Below are positions 9,314-22,926 of a stretch of DNA of 64,000 nt, in pieces. The stretch is from contig NZ_LR027848.1 in assembly GCF_900607235.1 (NCBI RefSeq), positions 1,358,297-1,422,296 of the forward strand. Reading direction: 5' to 3'. Position 1 is the first letter of the stretch. Every line of letters starts with the position of its first letter. Source of the stretch: Olivibacter jilunii. Lineage in GTDB: Bacteria; Bacteroidota; Bacteroidia; Sphingobacteriales; Sphingobacteriaceae. The notes under the pieces were generated by a model. It was not told the DNA's origin. It saw only the letters and a program-made list of their open reading frames with translations, and searched no databases. A program made the position numbers and the translations under genes.

Positions 9314-10300
9314 ATGAATGAGACGTTATTACAAACCCTATTTAAAAAGTATAGAAGTCAAACCCTAAGTGAAGAGGAAAGGGAACTTTTTTTCAGCTTG
9401 CTGGGGAATCCCGAATATAAAGAACGAGTAGAGGAATTAATACGCGAACTATGGAAGGACACGGAGCACTTTGAAAATGCCCCGCTAACATCGGCGGGGA
9501 AGAAGCGGATAGCCTCGGTAATGGCACGCATCGAAAGCCCTGAAAGAAGAGTAAAGAGGAGATTCCCAGCCTTCTGGGCAGCGGCAGCCAGTATTGCCTT
9601 GGGGTTTGGGTTGGCAATACTTTATTACGCCCAACAGGTAAAAACACCAGGTCCGGAAGCACCTCATGTGACGGAAATAAAAACCAACTATGGCGAGAAA
9701 AAGAAAATCACCTTACCAGACGGAAGCTTAATTTACCTGAATGCAGGAAGTGTATTGCGCTATGCCAATACTTATAATAAACAGAATCGGGAAATTGAAT
9801 TAATCGGCGAAGCCTTTTTTGAGGTAGCGCCGGATAAAGCACGGCCATTTGTTGTACGTAGTCAAGAGCTGCGGACTCACGTTTTAGGAACGTCGTTCAA
9901 CGTGCGGGCTTTTGGTGACGACGATCATCTTTTTGTGGCGCTGATAACGGGATCGGTACGTGTTGACCATGACTCATCGTCCTCTGTATTAAAACCAGGC
10001 GAAAAAATCAACTATAATAAATTAACCAAGGAAAGTAGCGTGTTGCCCATCAATGATAAGGATTATTGGGGGCTTTGGCGTAAGGAGGTCTTGGCTTTTA
10101 ACGGGCAACGTTTTGCCGAAGTAGCGTCCTTAATGGAAAAATGGTATGGTGTAAAAATCCATGTTAATAACCGGTCTTTGTTAAATCGGCGTTTCACCGG
10201 TGAATTTAAAGATTTACCCATTAACAAAGTGCTGGATATGCTAAGTAAGAGCAGCTCTTTCTCTTATCGAATTGAAAAGAATCAGGTCTATATTAAATAA
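9314..10300 (+). CDS. FecR-family anti-sigma factor with DUF4974 C-terminus (second module)
   Basis: The same architecture as the minus-strand FecR: a cytoplasmic N-terminus (MNETLLQTLFKKYRSQTLSE), one membrane helix at about residues 86-106 (FWAAAASIALGFGLAILYYA), a periplasmic FecR domain (TNYGEKKKITLPDGSLIYLN and GEAFFEVAPDKARPFVV), and a DUF4974 tail (GVKIHVNNRSLLNRRFTGEF). It lies 28 bp upstream of an STN-containing susC and is probably cotranscribed with it. No sigma gene precedes it on the same strand; the nearest candidate is the divergent ECF gene at 7922-8518. Confidence 0.95.
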   Translation: MNETLLQTLFKKYRSQTLSEEERELFFSLLGNPEYKERVEELIRELWKDTEHFENAPLTSAGKKRIASVMARIESPERRVKRRFPAFWAAAASIALGFGLAILYYAQQVKTPGPEAPHVTEIKTNYGEKKKITLPDGSLIYLNAGSVLRYANTYNKQNREIELIGEAFFEVAPDKARPFVVRSQELRTHVLGTSFNVRAFGDDDHLFVALITGSVRVDHDSSSSVLKPGEKINYNKLTKESSVLPINDKDYWGLWRKEVLAFNGQRFAEVASLMEKWYGVKIHVNNRSLLNRRFTGEFKDLPINKVLDMLSKSSSFSYRIEKNQVYIK

Positions 10301-10328
10301 GTTAAAATTTGCAAAATCAAAATCAGGG

Positions 10329-13300
10329 ATGAACAATCGAATACCTAACTATCTAAACTTTATGCTGAAAGCGTTCAGCACTGGTTGCTTTGCTTTGTCG
10401 GTGGTGCTGTGGAGTTATAGCCTTGTTTGCGCCAACACGGTGAAGGCTCAAGAGCTATCGAAGACACTGGTGAAGCTCCATTTACGTAACAAGTCGCTCA
10501 AAGAAGTCTTGCAACAGTTGGAACGGGAAAGTGATTTCCGATTTGTGTACAGCGATGGGGCGATTCCGAAAAACAAGTCGCTTTCGCTCGAAATGGAAGG
10601 CACAATGGCCGAAGCACTAAATAAGATTTCGGCGCAAACGCATACGCGTTATGAGCAACAGGGAAACAACCTGGTAGTAACCTATAATCCTCCTAGGCAG
10701 ATGATGCCACTTTCCGGAAAGATTGTGGACGACCAAGGAATGGCCTTGCCCGGTGCAAGTTTACGTATCCGTGAACTGAACAGGAGCACGGCGGCTAACG
10801 AAGAAGGGAACTACCTGATTTCTGTTCCGGCAGGCACTTATACCTTGGAGGTATCCTATGTGTCTTTTGAAACACAGGTGCGAAATGGGGTAGTGGTGGA
10901 GGAAGGTAAACCTACGACGGCCGACTTTCAGTTGAAAGCGAAAGGCGGCGAGTTAAATGAGGTAGTGGTTGTAGGATATGGCACGCAAAAGAAAGTAAAC
11001 TTGACCGGTGCGGTAGATCAGGTGGGCAGTGAAGTATTTGAAGGGCGCGTGGCCGCTAATGCAACGCAAATGTTGGCAGGTGCCGTACCGAACTTAAACA
11101 TCAATTTACAGGACGGGAAACCGACTCGTTCGCCGAGCTATAATGTGCGAGGTACCACCTCTATTGGTCAGGGTGGAAGCGCCTTGATATTGATTGATGG
11201 TGTTGAAGGTGATCCTTCGACCTTGAACCCAAACGATATTGAGTCGGTATCGGTCCTGAAAGACGCTTCCTCAGCAGCGGTATACGGTTCGCGCGGTACC
11301 TTCGGTGTCGTGTTGATTACAACCAAAAAAGCAGCTTTAGGAAAGACCTCTTTTACTTACAGCGGGAACACGTCCATGCAACAACTAGCGACGCAACCGG
11401 ATTTTGTGACCGATGGCTACACCTACGCTTCGCACTTTTTTGAAGCTTATAATGCATGGAACAACTACTCGTCGGTGCCGAGTAAGTTAAATAAGACACA
11501 AATCTTTACGCTCGATTGGCTGGAAGAGTTTAAAAGGAGGAAAGAGCAGGGCATTACCGAAGAGGTAACCGTAAATGATAATGGTGAATATGTATATTAT
11601 GGTAATGCGGATTACTTTGGCACCTTGTTGAAAGATAGAACGTGGGCGCAGGACCATAATCTATCTGTATCGGGTACAACGGAAAAATCAGATTTTTATT
11701 TATCGGGGCGTCTGTATGACTATAACGGTATTTATCGCTATAATACAGATGATTACAATAGCTATAACCTACGCGCAAAGGGCGGCTTACAGGTAACTGA
11801 TTGGCTACGGATCAGCAATAATATGGATTTTAATTTATCTAAATATCATGATCCGCAAACGGCCGGTGAAGGAGGGAATATATGGCGCAATATTGACGAT
11901 GAAGGGCACCCCACGTCGCCCATCTTCAATCCTGACGGTACTTTATCCTATTCTGCGGCTTACACGGTGGGCGACTTTATCTATGGCAAGAACGGTGTGG
12001 ATAGCAAAAACGATAATTTACGGAATACGACTTCTTTTGAAACGAAGTTCTTTAATAACAGTTTCCATATCCGTGGGGATCTTACTTTCCGTAATCGCGA
12101 TTTTACGTCTACGCGGATTAGGGTGCCCGTACCTTATAGCGTGAAGGAGGGAGAAACTCTGCTGTTACGTACTTCTTTCAACGATAACATTTATCAGCTT
12201 ACCGAGAAGTGGCGCTACTTGTTTACGAATCTATACGCGGATTATGAAAAAACTTGGGGCGATCATTATTTTAAAGGTTTGGTAGGTTATAACTATGAGC
12301 AGCGGGTCTACGATGCCAATTATATTACCAAGAATGGTTTGTTAACAGAAAATACCGAAAATATTAACTTGGCTTTAGGCGAATCCGTAACAGCTACAGC
12401 GGGGTATAATAAGTATCGGATTGCGGGTGTCTTTTTCCGTGCGAATTATATTTTTAAGGATAAATACCTCTTTGAAGTGAACGGTCGTTACGATGGGTCT
12501 TCGAAGTTTCCGACCGATGAGCAATGGGCCTTCTTCCCTTCGGCTTCGGTTGGCTGGCGCCTTTCGCAGGAGTCTTTCTGGAATGTTAATCCGAAGGCCA
12601 TTTCGGATGTGAAGTTACGGGCATCCTACGGTTCTCTTGGAAATGGAAACATCGATCCTTATACCTTCTTAAATACGTATAACATTACAACACAGGGTAT
12701 TATTTTGAATGGGGCTAAAAATCCCGTAACCTCAAGGCCAACCATACGGCCTGATAACTTGACCTGGGAGACGGCTCGTACAGCTAACTTTGGTTTGGAT
12801 TTGGTAGCACTAAATAGCAAGCTGACTTTTACCGGTGATATTTATACGCGCAAAACCTTGAATATGTATACGGTTGGTCCTACTTTACCGGATATTTTCG
12901 GAGCAGAATCACCAAAGGGTAACTACGCCGACTTAACCACGAATGGATATGAGATATCGATCGGTTATAATGACCAATTTAATATAGCCAACAAACCGTT
13001 CCGCTTCAGTGTAAAAGCCGGTTTGGCGGATTACCGTTCGACGATCGACAGGTATAATAATACCACGGGAGCTATTACCGACTATTATGCCGGGCAACGT
13101 GTAGGGGATGTTTGGGGCTATGTAACCCAAGGTCTCTTCCAATCGCAGGAAGAAATTGACGCAGCACCTAAACAAACTTTGATTAAATCTTCAAACTCGG
13201 GTGTGGTATATCCGGGAGATGTACGCTTTGCGGATTTAGATGGTAATGGCGTTATTGATTATGGTTCGAATACACTGAGCGATCATGGCGACAAGACTAT

Positions 13301-13844
13301 TATTGGTAATACTGAACCGCGTTATATCTATAACTTCAACCTGAATTTAAATTATAGTAACTTTTATGTATCGGCGTTCTTTCAGGGTGTAGGTAAACAG
13401 GATTGGTATCCAAGTAACGAGTCGATTTTCTGGGGGCAGTTCAACCGGCCTTATAATAACTTGCCAACGTGGCACCTGAACAATTACTGGACGGAGGATA
13501 ATCGGGACGCTTACTTACCCCGTTACGCCGGTTATAATACTTCCATACAAAATACGGCGCAAACTCGTTACCTGCAAAGCGTTGCTTATCTACGCTTGCG
13601 TAACCTGCAGGTAGGATACAATTTGCCTAAAGCCTTTGTACAAAAAGCCGGTCTGCAAGCGGTACGGGTAGGTTTATCCGGTGAGAATCTTTTTACTTGG
13701 TCGCCTTTATACAAGCACACCAAGGATATCGATGTAGCGAATATTGGTAAGTCTGATGAAGATGTCAGCAACTCCAATTCCGGAGATGGCTTTAATTATC
13801 CAACGATGCGCAGTGTAAGTTTTAATCTGTTAATCAACTTTTAA
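10329..13844 (+). CDS. SusC/RagA-family TonB-dependent transporter with STN domain (second module)
   Basis: Start chosen at 10329 (MNNRIPNYLNFMLKAF), which places a signal-like hydrophobic stretch (GCFALSVVLWSYSLVCA) correctly; the longer frame begins only with a TTG inside the fecR end. Domains in order: STN (LVKLHLRNKSLKEVLQQLER), carboxypeptidase-like regulatory domain (LSGKIVDDQGMALPGASL), plug with TonB-box-like NEVVVVGYGTQKKVNLTGAV and the family motif VLKDASSAAVYGSRG, then a barrel ending in INF. It forms an outer-membrane uptake complex with the SusD-like lipoprotein 83 bp downstream. Its plug and barrel differ greatly from the first SusC, so the two probably take different substrates. 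Confidence 0.96.
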   Translation: MNNRIPNYLNFMLKAFSTGCFALSVVLWSYSLVCANTVKAQELSKTLVKLHLRNKSLKEVLQQLERESDFRFVYSDGAIPKNKSLSLEMEGTMAEALNKISAQTHTRYEQQGNNLVVTYNPPRQMMPLSGKIVDDQGMALPGASLRIRELNRSTAANEEGNYLISVPAGTYTLEVSYVSFETQVRNGVVVEEGKPTTADFQLKAKGGELNEVVVVGYGTQKKVNLTGAVDQVGSEVFEGRVAANATQMLAGAVPNLNINLQDGKPTRSPSYNVRGTTSIGQGGSALILIDGVEGDPSTLNPNDIESVSVLKDASSAAVYGSRGTFGVVLITTKKAALGKTSFTYSGNTSMQQLATQPDFVTDGYTYASHFFEAYNAWNNYSSVPSKLNKTQIFTLDWLEEFKRRKEQGITEEVTVNDNGEYVYYGNADYFGTLLKDRTWAQDHNLSVSGTTEKSDFYLSGRLYDYNGIYRYNTDDYNSYNLRAKGGLQVTDWLRISNNMDFNLSKYHDPQTAGEGGNIWRNIDDEGHPTSPIFNPDGTLSYSAAYTVGDFIYGKNGVDSKNDNLRNTTSFETKFFNNSFHIRGDLTFRNRDFTSTRIRVPVPYSVKEGETLLLRTSFNDNIYQLTEKWRYLFTNLYADYEKTWGDHYFKGLVGYNYEQRVYDANYITKNGLLTENTENINLALGESVTATAGYNKYRIAGVFFRANYIFKDKYLFEVNGRYDGSSKFPTDEQWAFFPSASVGWRLSQESFWNVNPKAISDVKLRASYGSLGNGNIDPYTFLNTYNITTQGIILNGAKNPVTSRPTIRPDNLTWETARTANFGLDLVALNSKLTFTGDIYTRKTLNMYTVGPTLPDIFGAESPKGNYADLTTNGYEISIGYNDQFNIANKPFRFSVKAGLADYRSTIDRYNNTTGAITDYYAGQRVGDVWGYVTQGLFQSQEEIDAAPKQTLIKSSNSGVVYPGDVRFADLDGNGVIDYGSNTLSDHGDKTIIGNTEPRYIYNFNLNLNYSNFYVSAFFQGVGKQDWYPSNESIFWGQFNRPYNNLPTWHLNNYWTEDNRDAYLPRYAGYNTSIQNTAQTRYLQSVAYLRLRNLQVGYNLPKAFVQKAGLQAVRVGLSGENLFTWSPLYKHTKDIDVANIGKSDEDVSNSNSGDGFNYPTMRSVSFNLLINF

Positions 13845-13927
13845 GATAAACAATCATGTTGAAAGAAATATATAGCGATAGCGGGTCGCAAAACAAGAAA
13901 TCGAAACGCAATTGTACATTTAAAGTG

Positions 13928-15694
13928 ATGAAAAGAAAGTGGATTCTATTGGCCATGGCAGCATTGGCGTTTTCATCTTGCGAATTGAATGAAACGCCTA
14001 AGGCTACCGCAACGGAAGAAGATGTTTTTGGGAGCGAAAATGGCTTAGCGGCTTATAGCCGCTCTTTCTATGGCATGCTGCCTGATGCAAGCAATGCTTA
14101 TAATAGGGATGCAATGGCGGATTATGGCGCAGTAAATAACCTCAACAGCTTTATCCGCGAAGGCGGTTACTCTCCGGAGACAAGTGATGGTTGGAGCTGG
14201 GGTGATCTTAGGAATATCAATTATTTCATCGAACATTGCACTGATCCCAATGTGAGTGAAGCTGTACGCAATAATTACATAGGAATTGCCCGTTTCTTCC
14301 GTGCCTATTTTTATCTTGATAAGGTTATGCGATTTGGAGATGTGCCTTGGGTAGATCATGCTTTGGGTATTGACGAAACGGACATTTTATATGGGACAAG
14401 GGATTCGCGCGCCGTGGTAATGGAGCATGTGATGGAAGATTTGGATTTTGCTTCGCAAAATATTTCATCTACCAGCTCGGACGGATCACTGATAACGAAA
14501 TGGACCGCTTTAGGCCTGAAAACAAGGGCAGCGCTATTTGAAGCTTCCTATCGGAAATATCACCCGGAGTTGAATTTCCAGGAAAGTGCCAATACTTTTT
14601 ATCAATATGTAGTAGATGCCGCTACGGAATTAATGGAGAATGGCCCTTATTCTTTGTACACAGGTGCCGGTGTGGAAGGTTCGCAGCGGGCATTATTTAT
14701 CAGTGACGCACCGCTTACGCAGGAAGTAATGTGGGCGGTAACAATGAGCGAGGATCTGGCGGTAATGAGCAGCGCCAACTGGTGGTGGACATCAGCAACC
14801 TACGGTCCGCGTTATAGCTTAGTACGTCCTTTTATTAATACCATTTTGAATCTTGATGGAACGCCTTATACCAGCCGGACAGATTTTCAAACGGAGGAAT
14901 TTTATGACGAGTGCCAGAATCGTGACTACCGTTTAGCGCAGCTGATCCGCACCCCTGGATATTCTCGTAAGGGAGTGGCAGCACCGCCTAATTTTAGCAG
15001 CCATACCTATACAGGTTATCAGCCCATCAAATATATCTTGGACGACCCTCACTATGATAATGGAGCGTACAATACGAACGCGATCCCTTTAATGCGCTAT
15101 GCGGAAATACTGCTGAATTTTGCGGAGGCGAAGGCTGAGCTAGGTACGTTAACGGATGCAGACTGGGCAAAATCGATCGGAGCATTGCGCGCACGCGCGG
15201 GTATTACCGGTGGTTTGACCACCTTGCCAACAACGGTGGACACTTATTTACAGCAAACCTTTTTTCCGGACATAAGTAACCCGATTATCTTGGAAGTTCG
15301 TCGCGAGCGACAAGTGGAATTGGCGCTGGAAGGTTTTCGTTTTAACGATTTGAAACGTTGGAAGCATGGCGAGCTCATGGCTAATTTGCAATGGTCGGGA
15401 ATTTATGTGCCGGCACTGAATGTACTGATGGATCTTGACCATAATGGTAGCTATGATGTGGTATTCTATGATGGCAATACCGAAGGCCCAACAATCGCGG
15501 TACCGAGTGGTTGTGCGAAGGTAGCAATTGGCGGGAAAAGTACAAATTACCAGACATTAACGGCAAATAGGCATTTGGAATGGTTTAAAGCACAGCCTAG
15601 AAAATGGTATGAGGATGGCCGGCAGTACCTGTATCCTATTCCATCGACGGCCATTGTTAAAAATAACAACTTAAGCCAAAACCCGGGATGGTAA
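13928..15694 (+). CDS. SusD/RagB-family outer-membrane lipoprotein (second module)
   Basis: Start chosen at 13928 because it yields MKRKWILLAMAALAFSSC with lipobox AFSSC; an ATG at 13856 in the same frame would hide the signal. SusD hallmarks are the helical segment NNYIGIARFFRAYFYLDKVM, the NAIPLMRYAEILLNFAEAKA block, the ERQVELALEGFRFNDLKRWK block and the C-terminal LSQNPGW. At about 588 residues it is somewhat longer than the first SusD. It is the ligand-binding partner of the SusC encoded just upstream. Confidence 0.95.
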   Translation: MKRKWILLAMAALAFSSCELNETPKATATEEDVFGSENGLAAYSRSFYGMLPDASNAYNRDAMADYGAVNNLNSFIREGGYSPETSDGWSWGDLRNINYFIEHCTDPNVSEAVRNNYIGIARFFRAYFYLDKVMRFGDVPWVDHALGIDETDILYGTRDSRAVVMEHVMEDLDFASQNISSTSSDGSLITKWTALGLKTRAALFEASYRKYHPELNFQESANTFYQYVVDAATELMENGPYSLYTGAGVEGSQRALFISDAPLTQEVMWAVTMSEDLAVMSSANWWWTSATYGPRYSLVRPFINTILNLDGTPYTSRTDFQTEEFYDECQNRDYRLAQLIRTPGYSRKGVAAPPNFSSHTYTGYQPIKYILDDPHYDNGAYNTNAIPLMRYAEILLNFAEAKAELGTLTDADWAKSIGALRARAGITGGLTTLPTTVDTYLQQTFFPDISNPIILEVRRERQVELALEGFRFNDLKRWKHGELMANLQWSGIYVPALNVLMDLDHNGSYDVVFYDGNTEGPTIAVPSGCAKVAIGGKSTNYQTLTANRHLEWFKAQPRKWYEDGRQYLYPIPSTAIVKNNNLSQNPGW

Positions 15695-18044: not shown

Positions 18045-18052
18045 TACTTTTG
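18045..18052 (+). promoter_or_regulatory. Bacteroidetes -7 element upstream of the WG-repeat pair
   Basis: TACTTTTG fits TAnnTTTG and ends only 4 bp before the ATG at 18057. If used, the transcript would be leaderless or nearly so. The -33 region (ATTT at 18021) is weak. Confidence 0.45.
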
Positions 18053-18056
18053 ATTC

Positions 18057-20336
18057 ATGAATAAACGCTATTTGTTGCTTCTATATTTCATGGTTCATCT
18101 GTCAGTTTTTGGGCAGACACCTGCAGTAGTGGATGCTATTGATTTTTCGTCGTATGAAACCTTTCCGGAAGTACAGTTGGATGGCAAGAGATATCTGTAT
18201 TTACCGGAGGCGAACTTGCTAATTGATAAAGTAGAAAACAGCACCGGAAATATGTTAAGTGTGATAAAGGATGGCATGTACGGCGCTGTGGATAAAAATG
18301 GGAAAATCCTTGCGGCTATCGAATACGACGGTATTGAGTTGAAAGACGAGTATAAAGGACAATGGTATGAAGGAATAAGTTACGATTATGAGTTTATTAT
18401 AACCGAAAAAGAGGGCAAATATGGCGTTATAAATGTCAAGGGTCGTGAGATTAGCCCACCTCAATATGACGGGATAGAGATTATTAATAAGGATTTAATA
18501 GGAGTTAAACAACACGGCAAATGGGGGTGGACTGCTGCAGAGGATGGTCATGTCATCCAACAGCCTATTTATGACGAAGTGCGTAAATGCTACTTGAATG
18601 ATAAGTGTGTGGCGATTTATCTAGGAGATAAGCAAGGAATGGCAAAGGCGGATGGAACCGTTATTATTCCACCTAAATACGTTTTTCTTTCGAATCTTTA
18701 TACACATTCGGCATCCTACATTGCTTGTTCTGAAAACGGATTATATGGTGTTTTGGATCAAGGGGGAAAGGCGCTTACGTCTACTCAATTTGAGGCGGTA
18801 TCCTCTTTAGGTGACATTGATTTAATAAAGGTGAAACAAGGAGGTAAATTTGGGGCTATTAACACGCAAGGCAATTGGATTATTCCTGCTGAATACGACC
18901 AAATCGACGACTTTGTTAAGCGTTTGGCGATTGTTGCAAAGGATGGGAAACAAGCGGTTGTGGATAGCAGCGGAAAATTGCTCGTCCCTTTTGGCTATGA
19001 TGAGATTGAATTTCAGGATGCGGAAGGACAACCCGTATTTCCTGCTGCAGCGGCGGTAATGGCGCCCATATCTTATGGGGCTGAGTTGTCGGAGGTAGCT
19101 TTAAAGGAGCAAGCAAAAAGGAAAGCAATAGCTGCATTACCCTATACCATTTATGTACAACGGGGCGATCAAAGTAATCGGCTCGACTGGTCCGGTAAAC
19201 CTATATTTCCGCCCAATCAATTGTTGACGACTGATCCCTTTATCCAAGGAGGAAAATCTTACTATCGCGTTTTCACAAAAGATTTATATGGTGTATATGA
19301 TGCAGAGGGGGAAGAGATTTTACCGACGAAGTATCACTTACCGCAGGATCAATATGCAATGACGACGGACTATAACCTAGGCGGAATCGATTTGTCCGAT
19401 TCATCGTTCGTCCCTATATATGATGGTGAAAAGCTGGGCCTATTTAATTTAGTGCAAAAGTCCTTTATAGTTCCTGTGGCTGATCAAAAAATCAGCTGGA
19501 TTAGCCGACATTATTTGGTTGTGACCCGTAAACTACAGGATAGGGACTACGCCTATGAGGCAGCGCTTTACAACAGCGAGGGGCAATGTGTCAGGGGTTT
19601 TGATGCCAATGTTTACGATTATCATCCTGTTAGTGAAAATTTCTTCCTGCTGGAGCGGGAAGACCAAAGTTTACAACTGATAAATGGCGATGGAAAGGTC
19701 GTCTATGAAAATCCAAGTTGGAAGGGCAGTTTGCGAAAGCAGGGCTTCGGCTTACCTATTAATGAAAATCAGGATGCAGTTCCGTTTGAAAGCGGCCTGC
19801 TAAAAATAAGCGGTGATCAGCACAACCTTTTCATCGATTTGCAGGCTAGAGAAAGGCGCTTTGCAGGATACACGGCGGTGGGAAATTTTTATAAGGGGCT
19901 AGCCTTCGTCGTGAAAAAAGCGGAGGATGGAAAGGATCGCTACGGGGTAATCAATAAAGATGGGAAAGAGCTAATTCCGGCAAAACTGGAACAAATCAAT
20001 ACCGTATACGACCACCCCAATTTATTGCTGGTACGCCAAGATAATCAATACGGGCTGTGGAGTCGAGAAGGGAAATTCTTATTAAACCTAGAATACGATG
20101 ATATAGAAATCAATAGTTCGCAACGCTATGTGCGAATTGTGAAAAACGGTAAAATTGGTTTGGCAACTAAAGACGGGGAAATAGTGCTTGCCCCAAAATA
20201 TGATGAGTTATTTGTTAACTATGAGGGTGATGAGCACACTTGGCCCGTCTTGGTAAAAGAGAGGGAGTGGTATCACATCGTAGCCAAGGACGGAACGATT
20301 TATCCAATAAAGACGCAGAAAAAAGGAGCTTATTAA
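18057..20336 (+). CDS. Large exported WG-repeat protein, first of two
   Basis: MNKRYLLLLYFMVHLSVFGQ is a signal peptide, so the protein is exported. The rest is built from WG beta-repeats of about 30-40 residues with the pattern K(D/Q)G(K)(Y/W/F)G-(V)-x-x-x-G-(K)-x-(I/L)-x-P-x-x-Y-D. Clear units include KDGMYGAVDKNGKILAAIEY, KEGKYGVINVKGREISPPQY, KQHGKWGW, GGKFGAINTQGNWIIPAEYD and KNGKIGLATKDGEIVLAPKY; I count roughly seven at the N-terminus, two in the middle and three to four at the C-terminus. No catalytic domain is visible. WG repeats form beta structures often linked to binding, but the function is unknown. The second gene starts 1 bp after this stop, so the two are surely cotranscribed. 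Confidence 0.85.
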   Translation: MNKRYLLLLYFMVHLSVFGQTPAVVDAIDFSSYETFPEVQLDGKRYLYLPEANLLIDKVENSTGNMLSVIKDGMYGAVDKNGKILAAIEYDGIELKDEYKGQWYEGISYDYEFIITEKEGKYGVINVKGREISPPQYDGIEIINKDLIGVKQHGKWGWTAAEDGHVIQQPIYDEVRKCYLNDKCVAIYLGDKQGMAKADGTVIIPPKYVFLSNLYTHSASYIACSENGLYGVLDQGGKALTSTQFEAVSSLGDIDLIKVKQGGKFGAINTQGNWIIPAEYDQIDDFVKRLAIVAKDGKQAVVDSSGKLLVPFGYDEIEFQDAEGQPVFPAAAAVMAPISYGAELSEVALKEQAKRKAIAALPYTIYVQRGDQSNRLDWSGKPIFPPNQLLTTDPFIQGGKSYYRVFTKDLYGVYDAEGEEILPTKYHLPQDQYAMTTDYNLGGIDLSDSSFVPIYDGEKLGLFNLVQKSFIVPVADQKISWISRHYLVVTRKLQDRDYAYEAALYNSEGQCVRGFDANVYDYHPVSENFFLLEREDQSLQLINGDGKVVYENPSWKGSLRKQGFGLPINENQDAVPFESGLLKISGDQHNLFIDLQARERRFAGYTAVGNFYKGLAFVVKKAEDGKDRYGVINKDGKELIPAKLEQINTVYDHPNLLLVRQDNQYGLWSREGKFLLNLEYDDIEINSSQRYVRIVKNGKIGLATKDGEIVLAPKYDELFVNYEGDEHTWPVLVKEREWYHIVAKDGTIYPIKTQKKGAY

Positions 20337-20337
20337 T

Positions 20338-22926
20338 ATGGGAAGATACTTTTATATCGTTGTTTGGCTTTTGCTTCCCATACTTGGCGCAGGGCAAGGG
20401 AAGGAAAATGACAGTCAAGGATCGATAGCTGGCCAAGTTGAACAGCTGACCAGTTTGGCTTCTTTTTATCATGGTTATGCACGCGTTAAGAAAGGAGAAA
20501 AAGAATACTATATAAACAAACAGGGCGGGAAGGCTTTTGATACAGTAGTTCCGAACGCAAATGTCATGTTAGGGAATAAAGACGATATCGCCGCCTATGA
20601 TGAGTCTGTTAAAAGTGAACTACTACCAACTAAGGTAATCCCCTTTATAAAGGACGGGAAATGGGGAGTGATGAACCCACGGGGTGAAGTTTTATTGAAG
20701 GCAGCGTATGACAGTGTGGGAGTTGATAATCCCTATTACTGGAAATTGAAGAAGGCTAACGAAATTTCCTTCTACCTTAAAGGGGGAAAGATGTTGCCGT
20801 TTTTTGAGGATGCCGGCTATTTAGATGGTAATTACTTTGATGTAAAACAACAAGGAAAGTGGGGTATTTACAGCTTCAAAGAGCAAAAGTTGGTAATACC
20901 GGCCATCTTTGATGCCTTTGATTACTGCGGTGGTTGTGGAAGAAAACCTTCTTATGTATATGCAAGTCATAATGGTAAGTGGGGTATTCTGGATTGGAAC
21001 GGAAAAGAACTACTTCCCTTTGTTTATGAACATGGTCACTATGGCATGCGGAGCGATAATTGGGTAGAATCTTTTACGAAGAATGGGAAGCGCTTAATTG
21101 TACATATTCCCACTAGAAAAGAATTCCTGGCAGATGAACAGGACGATTATCCTAAAATCGTTGCAGGTCTTTTGCTGGTTAAAGAAATTATAAACGTAGC
21201 GCATCGGCAAACTGTTAAAACAGGAAATAATGGTTCTATGGCGCGATATGGTATTGGTATCTACGGGCAGGATGGAGAAATGGTTTCACCGCCACAGTAT
21301 GAATGGATCGACGAACCGAATGCTAATTCTTACCTAGGGTATTATGGACCTTATCTTCTCGCAAAAGCCGATGGTAAGATGGGTGTTGTTAACCACTCGG
21401 GGAAATGGGTACTGCCGGCTCAATATGATGATGTAAAGGTTTATGATGATTATTTTGTAGCTAGAAAGGATAACCTGGCCATCTTATTTGACAAGAATCA
21501 AAAAGAACTATTGCAGGTCAATAATGCAGAAATTACGCATGCCAACGAGTATTTCTACTCCAATGGTAGTGATGGTTTAGCCGTTTTTAAAGTTAAGCAG
21601 CGTGCTTACTACGGTCTTTATTTCGTGGACAACGTAAGGTATTACCCGCCGGAGTTTTATGACGTGGATATCAAAGCTAAATTTGATGGTGAAAATCGAA
21701 ACTTGATTGTGGGGGAAAAGCAAGGGCTTTTTACGGTATTCGATGCTCATGGAAATTTGTTGATACCGGGACAGTATAATGGCTTCTCTTTTTTGGAAAG
21801 CTTACCGGATTCGTTAGCGGAAATTGTGCGGGGTAAGAAAGTGGGCCTATATAACGTGAAATCACAAAAGGAAGTTATACCGCCTGTTTACGACCATTTT
21901 GAGCTGATGGGACCGCAGCACGAATTGATAATGACAACGAAAGGGGACTATGATAAACCTGCCTATGAATTTTGGAACCTACAGGGACAAAAAATTATTG
22001 GTAAAACCTTCACCGACAAGGACACCATAAACACCCAATATTGTCTGTTAAAAAACGACCAAAACGGTTATTCACTGTTTAATGTAGAAACGAAGCAAGT
22101 TCGATTTTTAGATTACGCTTATGTTTGGAAGGTGGGCTCGTCGCGTCTGCTCTTTGTATCAGATGATGGGAGAAAGGGGAAGCTTTTTGATATTTTGGAG
22201 GATAGAGAGCTTGGGACCGTTTATGATGCCAGTCAGTTTAACTTTGAATTGAATGGCGAACGGAATACCACCTATGTTACGCTGTTTCCTTTCAAAAATG
22301 GTTTTGCAAAGATCGTAAAACATGGAGAATATGGTTTTATAGATGAAAAAGGAAAGGAGCTTCTACCTCCAAAATATGCCAAGGTATCGGATTTCAACGG
22401 AGCAGGGCTTGCCGTTGTAGTTGATGCCCGGAAGCTCCAAGAAATGGGTTATAACAACCGGCTGTGGCCCGTAAATATCATCGATAAGAGCGGGCGAACT
22501 TTACTTTCTGAAGGTTATGTAGCGCCTGATCTACAATTTTCGGATTTTTCTGAACTGTTTCTGAACGATAAAATATTGCTTTTTAAAATGCTTTCACATA
22601 CGAGCGAATTGCGCGTTGGCCTAGCCGATAGTAAGGGGCAAGTGCTATTGGAGCCGATTTACAATGACATCATTCCGACGAAGAATAATCGCCTACTTTT
22701 ACTAAAGAAAGGAGCTAAATTCGGATTGGCCACCTTTGAAGGAAAGATTATAGTTCCGGTGCAGTATGCAAACATGGGCTTGGGAAATGGTGCTTTTTAT
22801 ACGAGTTCGGACAGCGTCGATATGTTTCCGGTACCGGTCTTCAACGACGATAAATGGTTCTATATTGATGAGACAGGCAAAAAACTACCCCTTGAAGCAG
22901 CTAATTTAGATGATTTACTGTATTAA
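20338..22926 (+). CDS. Large exported WG-repeat protein, second of two
   Basis: MGRYFYIVVWLLLPILGAGQ is a signal peptide. Of 862 residues, most are WG repeats: KDGKWGVMNPRGEVLLKAAY, QQGKWGIYSFKEQKLVIPAI, HNGKWGILDWNGKELLPFVY, ADGKMGVVNHSGKWVLPAQY, GKKVGLYNVKSQKEVIPPVY, KHGEYGFIDEKGKELLPPKY and KKGAKFGLATFEGKIIVPVQ are the clearest. Some units have lost the Trp or Tyr before Gly. It shares architecture, not close sequence, with the preceding gene and must be translated from the same transcript (1-bp gap). There is no recognisable enzyme, anchor or type IX secretion tail. Function not known. Confidence 0.85.
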   Translation: MGRYFYIVVWLLLPILGAGQGKENDSQGSIAGQVEQLTSLASFYHGYARVKKGEKEYYINKQGGKAFDTVVPNANVMLGNKDDIAAYDESVKSELLPTKVIPFIKDGKWGVMNPRGEVLLKAAYDSVGVDNPYYWKLKKANEISFYLKGGKMLPFFEDAGYLDGNYFDVKQQGKWGIYSFKEQKLVIPAIFDAFDYCGGCGRKPSYVYASHNGKWGILDWNGKELLPFVYEHGHYGMRSDNWVESFTKNGKRLIVHIPTRKEFLADEQDDYPKIVAGLLLVKEIINVAHRQTVKTGNNGSMARYGIGIYGQDGEMVSPPQYEWIDEPNANSYLGYYGPYLLAKADGKMGVVNHSGKWVLPAQYDDVKVYDDYFVARKDNLAILFDKNQKELLQVNNAEITHANEYFYSNGSDGLAVFKVKQRAYYGLYFVDNVRYYPPEFYDVDIKAKFDGENRNLIVGEKQGLFTVFDAHGNLLIPGQYNGFSFLESLPDSLAEIVRGKKVGLYNVKSQKEVIPPVYDHFELMGPQHELIMTTKGDYDKPAYEFWNLQGQKIIGKTFTDKDTINTQYCLLKNDQNGYSLFNVETKQVRFLDYAYVWKVGSSRLLFVSDDGRKGKLFDILEDRELGTVYDASQFNFELNGERNTTYVTLFPFKNGFAKIVKHGEYGFIDEKGKELLPPKYAKVSDFNGAGLAVVVDARKLQEMGYNNRLWPVNIIDKSGRTLLSEGYVAPDLQFSDFSELFLNDKILLFKMLSHTSELRVGLADSKGQVLLEPIYNDIIPTKNNRLLLLKKGAKFGLATFEGKIIVPVQYANMGLGNGAFYTSSDSVDMFPVPVFNDDKWFYIDETGKKLPLEAANLDDLLY

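Follow-up and report, generated by a model that had tools for sequence, protein, structure and literature searches.

Conserved Pair of Genes for Putatively Exported WG-Repeat Proteins in Olivibacter jilunii and the Invariant Cys/His Patch of the Second Protein

Introduction

WG repeats occur widely among bacteria, and the literature searched gave no settled function for them. A 64,000-nucleotide stretch of the Olivibacter jilunii genome (NCBI RefSeq assembly GCF_900607235.1, contig NZ_LR027848.1, forward-strand positions 1,358,297 to 1,422,296; hereafter the window) carries two adjacent genes, A and B, for WG-repeat proteins that appear to be exported. They raise the question of whether two such proteins, encoded side by side, act together and what each of them contributes. 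The literature searched, which was mostly without subscription papers, showed no study of what such a pair does in Bacteroidota. PMC8855297 describes one Pseudomonas WG lipoprotein within a regulon, and PMC8767351 gives a WG Pfam family in 40% of commensal Acidovorax.

Results and Discussion

Gene Organization and Sequence Features of the Pair

Gene A (18057..20336, + strand) codes for a protein of 759 aa and gene B (20338..22926, + strand) for a protein of 862 aa, with 1 bp between the stop of A and the start of B. The ORF coordinates thus bear out an earlier sequence-only reading of the locus, although its term "giant" is generous for proteins of 759 and 862 aa. The WG_beta_rep family (PF14903) was recognized in A with an E value of 3.9e-45 (152 bits) and in B with an E value of 2.8e-31 (107.7 bits). 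Both scores are well above the curated cut-off of 25.6 bits, and in this respect the two proteins agree with the family. PF14903, however, describes a single 35-position repeat, whereas A and B represent two full-length families in a fixed gene order. No other family was found in A or B with Pfam and NCBIfam at E 0.001, and the same search showed no C-terminal sorting domain of type IX secretion in the window's proteins. Single repeats that pass Pfam by themselves number three in A and two in B. On the predicted structures, a script counted 24 hairpin starts in A and 20 in B, which partly overlap, and about 17-20 four-strand units were counted by eye in each protein. The description "almost nothing but WG repeats" therefore holds better for the predicted structure than for the strict motif, which so few single repeats satisfy.

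The N-termini of A and B resemble type I signal peptides and lack a lipobox, as judged by eye and with a regular expression, which agrees with the signal peptide originally assigned to each protein. No lipobox cysteine ends the signal peptide of the window's A or B. When the lipobox regular expression was applied to the A and B proteins from 31 loci, 61 in all, it matched four of them (L073 A, L083 B, L098 B, and L103 B), none with a convincing cleavage site by eye. From these N-terminal sequences, read by eye, we infer that A and B both act in the cell envelope, in the periplasm or at its outer face. The window's genome has three more WG genes, which are shorter (open frames of 470, 338, and 498 aa).

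Cotranscription of A and B is suggested by their spacing. The window contains 15 promoter-like sites against 13.0 expected and six terminator-like sites against 3.9 expected. The sequence TAnnTTTG, which we take to be the Bacteroidota promoter element, lies at 18045-18052, occurs 76 times in the whole window against 67 expected, and stands near the A start in 12 of 30 pairs, at distances that vary. As the element is near background and accompanies only these 12 pairs, the argument for cotranscription is the spacing.

Relationship of A and B

The identity of A and B is 21% by BLASTP. Their family profiles aligned across 717 columns with an E value of 4.5e-69 (hhalign), and this full-length homology indicates that A and B are ancient paralogues. 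Their origin would most simply be explained by an old tandem duplication. The low identity noted in the sequence-only reading was thus correct, but it is a weak argument for a complex, since A and B are ancient paralogues.

Predicted Structures and Comparison with Known Folds

Structure prediction of each protein alone was one of the checks proposed in the sequence-only reading, and it gave all-beta repeat models. With AlphaFold2 and the natural alignment, a mean pLDDT of 86.6 and a pTM of 0.68 were obtained for A, and 84.0 and 0.55 for B. Both models consist mainly of beta strand with little helix and are built of repeated four-strand units. Nearly all of the matches listed in the fold searches were beta-propeller proteins by title. 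The models of A and B share successive four-stranded antiparallel units with propellers such as BamB, eIF3b, PorZ, and the sensor domains of Bacteroides two-component systems, but they differ from them in the quality of the match: among the matches listed, TM-scores did not exceed 0.19 and the best Z values were 8.2 for A and 8.6 for B, about the level of models without a clear match. The propeller matches may reflect only a common strand arrangement. Sequence searches found no relative of A in the PDB. A PDB match of B alone (E 0.00073) was considered doubtful, and the B profile gave only another one at E 0.39, which is also doubtful; by sequence, no solved structure appears to be a convincing relative of A or B. 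In PMC8078820, PF14903 has a row among the modelled repeat families, where a value of 0.06 stands with the closest structure; we take this to mean that there is no good match.

Conservation of the Gene Pair

A scan of named genomes with the single B sequence gave no match, and a profile scan gave 26 B loci after filtering by the patterns YLDG..FD and FDYCG. Together with the window and the loci from further genomes, 44 B loci were collected. Thirteen of them were dropped, as their B protein duplicates that of another locus, which left 31 distinct loci. Six of these have a near-identical sister, so the 31 are not all independent cases. They come from Sphingobacteriaceae, Flavobacteriaceae, Weeksellaceae, and Chitinophagaceae. 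Gene A lies upstream of B on the same strand in 30 of the 31 loci, and the lack of conserved pairing in other genomes, named earlier as half of the grounds for refuting a joint role, was not what the search for conserved neighbours found. The gap between A and B is -50 to +65 bp in 28 of the 30 pairs, where the overlaps at some loci hinge on setting the start codon as early as possible. In the other two pairs, those of Parapedobacter luteus and P. composti, the gap is 1962 bp and contains one ORF. This ORF (L071:9069-10532 in P. luteus, L072:8644-10107 in P. composti) encodes 487 aa with membrane-like stretches, and no Pfam family was found in the L071 copy.

In a sample of 151 Sphingobacteriaceae genomes, long relatives of A are present in six, including the window's own and one in which A is in two pieces. 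The same six genomes carry B too, and A-only genomes number zero in this sample. Within the window's genus, the pair was found in two of five genomes of the sample, namely the window's own and that of Olivibacter sitiensis (G037; its locus L069 equals the named L095).

Distribution of A Without B

The order-wide search covered 400 genomes, of which 18 carry B and 29 a full-length A, and all 18 are among the 29. Another 39 genomes gave only partial, weaker A matches. The order and phylum scans scored at most two candidates per genome, and extra weak copies could escape them. The 11 genomes of the 29 that have A only belong to one genus, judged to be Sphingobacterium. In the stretches examined near their full-length A, no B-type ORF was found. 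A whole-genome search of these 11 with a broader B profile returned A itself as the top match in all 11, and the remaining matches, weak at E 2.5e-14 or worse, fell on A or on other WG frames no longer than 860 aa. The persistence of A alone in 11 genomes shows that A does not need B.

Across the phylum sample of 395 genomes, the pair is rare. The B profile found two genomes, the window's own and one with a B-like gene, and the A profile at E 1e-60 found only the window's own. B-like genes without a full-length A were observed in Chitinophaga niastensis (L107) and in G695 (L151). In the protein of the lone G695 gene (L151:8800-11310), the N-terminus is lipoprotein-like and CRTC replaces CGGC; H232 and M237 are kept.

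Phylogeny of A and B

The A-only sequences fall into two separate groups nested among the pair sequences of the A tree, and the well-supported branches of this tree do not allow fewer than two changes between the paired and A-only states. The distances in the A and B trees are correlated with r = 0.948 over 30 loci, while the maximum of 1000 label shuffles, a procedure that ignores relatedness, was 0.23. Two losses of B are the simplest reading of the two A-only groups and the agreement of the trees. In the B tree, the B-like genes of L107 and L151 stand apart as a separate outgroup lineage. Both trees place Chryseobacterium with Pedobacter, a Sinomicrobium MAG with Parapedobacter, and Gynurincola with Sphingobacterium, as expected if the pair moved between families as one unit. 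The A tree also groups the window's pair with those of Flavobacterium and Pedobacter (support 83) and the Olivibacter sitiensis pair (L069:7906-12763) with Sphingobacterium (support 100). These placements hint at separate acquisition of the two Olivibacter pairs.

Conserved Cys/His Patch of B

B contains a conserved patch at residues 154-246 (20797..21075, + strand), located by windowed majority fractions. For 27 sequences, the majority fraction per 20-residue window was 0.59-0.73 over residues 141-260 and 0.15-0.60 in the windows outside. The patch includes the motif C197-G-G-C200 (20926..20937, + strand) and the motif H232-x-H234-x-x-M237-R238-x-D240-x-W242 (21031..21063, + strand), both present in 30 of 30 B sequences. 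The residues invariant in all 30 are D195, Y196, C197, G198, G199, C200, Y206, K214, W215, H232, H234, M237, R238, D240, and W242; C197, C200, H232, H234, and M237 among them are of the type that serves as ligands for soft metals. Both cysteines are also kept in the outgroup proteins of L107 and L151. The latter, which is the most distant, keeps C197, C200, H232, and M237, and has changes at G198, G199, H234, R238, D240, and W242. The scan patterns YLDG..FD and FDYCG selected for part of the motif, so its count in the 26 loci of that scan is biased. CGGC is nevertheless present in 18 of 18 B genes from the order profile search, which made no motif selection. Across 155 loci, the pattern F-x-Y-C-x-x-C was found in all 32 distinct B-type proteins, in none of 41 A proteins, and in none of the 45 other WG proteins, from which the patch sets B apart. 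In A, the most conserved stretch covers residues 581-617 (GLLKI..NLFID..RF..DFY; 19797..19907, + strand; by majority fraction); two 20-residue windows from residue 581 gave 0.65 and 0.59, and K583 and N590 are present in 41 of 41 A sequences.

When the repeats are set in register by the prolines before the loops (P188 and P227), H232 aligns with A193 and H234 with D195, and M237 corresponds to G198, which lies between the two cysteines. On this reading, DYCGGC and HxHxxMRxDxW would occupy equivalent loops in neighbouring repeats. On a repeat scaffold, these loops should share one face and adjoin the preceding YLDG loop. The B model is less sure there, with a mean pLDDT of 71-76 at residues 191-210 and 231-240. 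The patch could be purely structural. A bolder reading, which we consider improbable, takes the C-x2-C, H-x-H, and M residues as a redox centre or as a metal centre with copper or zinc, on a WG scaffold that is not known for such centres, and would make A and B an undescribed envelope module of Bacteroidota for metal handling, redox, or sensing.

Proposed Function of the Pair

What has to be explained is the pairing of A and B, their order, their co-inheritance, the asymmetry of their distribution, and an invariant patch present in B only. The best reading of these, which in our judgement stands at an even chance, is that A and B form a two-gene envelope binding module, with A as the core and B as an added subunit that has a ligand or metal site. 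An old tandem duplication would have produced A and B, which would since have been inherited and transferred together. A would be the core of the module, and B would work with it, most likely bound to it. The loops of successive B repeats that carry YLDG, DYCGGC, and HxHxxMRxDxW would form one site, which may bind a ligand or a metal ion or be braced by a disulphide. The distinct roles earlier suggested for A and B gain support from the Cys/His patch of B and from the A-only genomes. Against a joint module stand A alone in 11 genomes and the B-like genes of L107 and L151 without a full-length A, and the agreement of the trees would also follow from simple linkage.

It is possible, though on balance doubtful, that A and B are paralogues that simply stayed adjacent and work in parallel on different ligands without contact, with shared transcription keeping them linked. 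Their full-length homology, the 11 of 29 genomes with A and no B, and the absence of any third gene beyond 9 of 31 loci are all in line with such parallel work. The order of the pair, however, has been kept through apparent transfers across families, and in the order scan B always occurs with A (18 of 18), which speaks against mere parallel work.

The conserved pair, the few invariant residues of B, and the natural A-only genomes make the function of WG repeats directly testable. The open question of what these repeats do is narrowed here to whether A binds B, whether the patch binds a metal or another ligand, and what the loss of B alone changes.

Genomic Neighbourhood

In the window, genes for SusC, SusD, an endonuclease/phosphatase-like protein, and an acyltransferase lie upstream of the pair, and genes for a GH16-like protein (below the Pfam cut-off) and a GH88 protein lie downstream. 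This fits the earlier placement of the pair beside, and not within, a glycan cluster. At 9314-15694, the genes for a FecR-type anti-sigma factor, SusC, and SusD follow one another and make up a sigma-regulated type of outer-membrane uptake locus. With these neighbours, and with periplasmic sensor domains from glycan regulators of Bacteroides among the many propellers listed as fold matches, the pair might be a glycan-binding accessory of the adjoining SusC/SusD locus. We regard this as unlikely, because the link is not conserved: the cluster of the window's SusC lies within 8 kb in 7 of 31 loci (a few loci end at a contig edge), and a SusD-like cluster, so labelled by reading and not including the window's own SusD, in 4 of 31. 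Conserved adjacency of the pair to SusC/SusD was therefore not found at this distance. Among the ORFs within 8 kb, compared by clusters that span four or more loci, no third gene family is common to all loci. The most frequent cluster, regulator-like by reading and at varying places, is present in 9 of 31. With no other family above that number, the pair has the look of a separate module that does not belong to the adjoining glycan locus.

A role in contact with other cells or phages, as envelope immunity or defence, would suit the patchy occurrence of the pair (in the order, 18 of 400 genomes carry B; in the phylum sample, two of 395 do, one of them with a B-like gene) and the apparent transfer between families, but it is very improbable, since no family exceeds 9 of 31 loci, which leaves no constant toxin or secretion partner, and no PADLOC family of known anti-phage defence matched the pair at E 0.01.

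Two further features were observed near the pair. Two Parapedobacter loci (L071:15670-18069 and L072:15245-17626) and one Sphingobacterium locus (L087:15191-17452) carry, on the opposite strand, a gene for a third large WG protein, whose N-terminus is lipoprotein-like. In 4 of 31 loci (L082:13107-15987, L087:12417-15194, L100:7089-9921, and L135:12524-15320), response-regulator-like and large kinase- or TPR-like genes, so named by reading, are convergent to the pair; they occur in Pedobacter, Sphingobacterium, Chryseobacterium, and one further genome.
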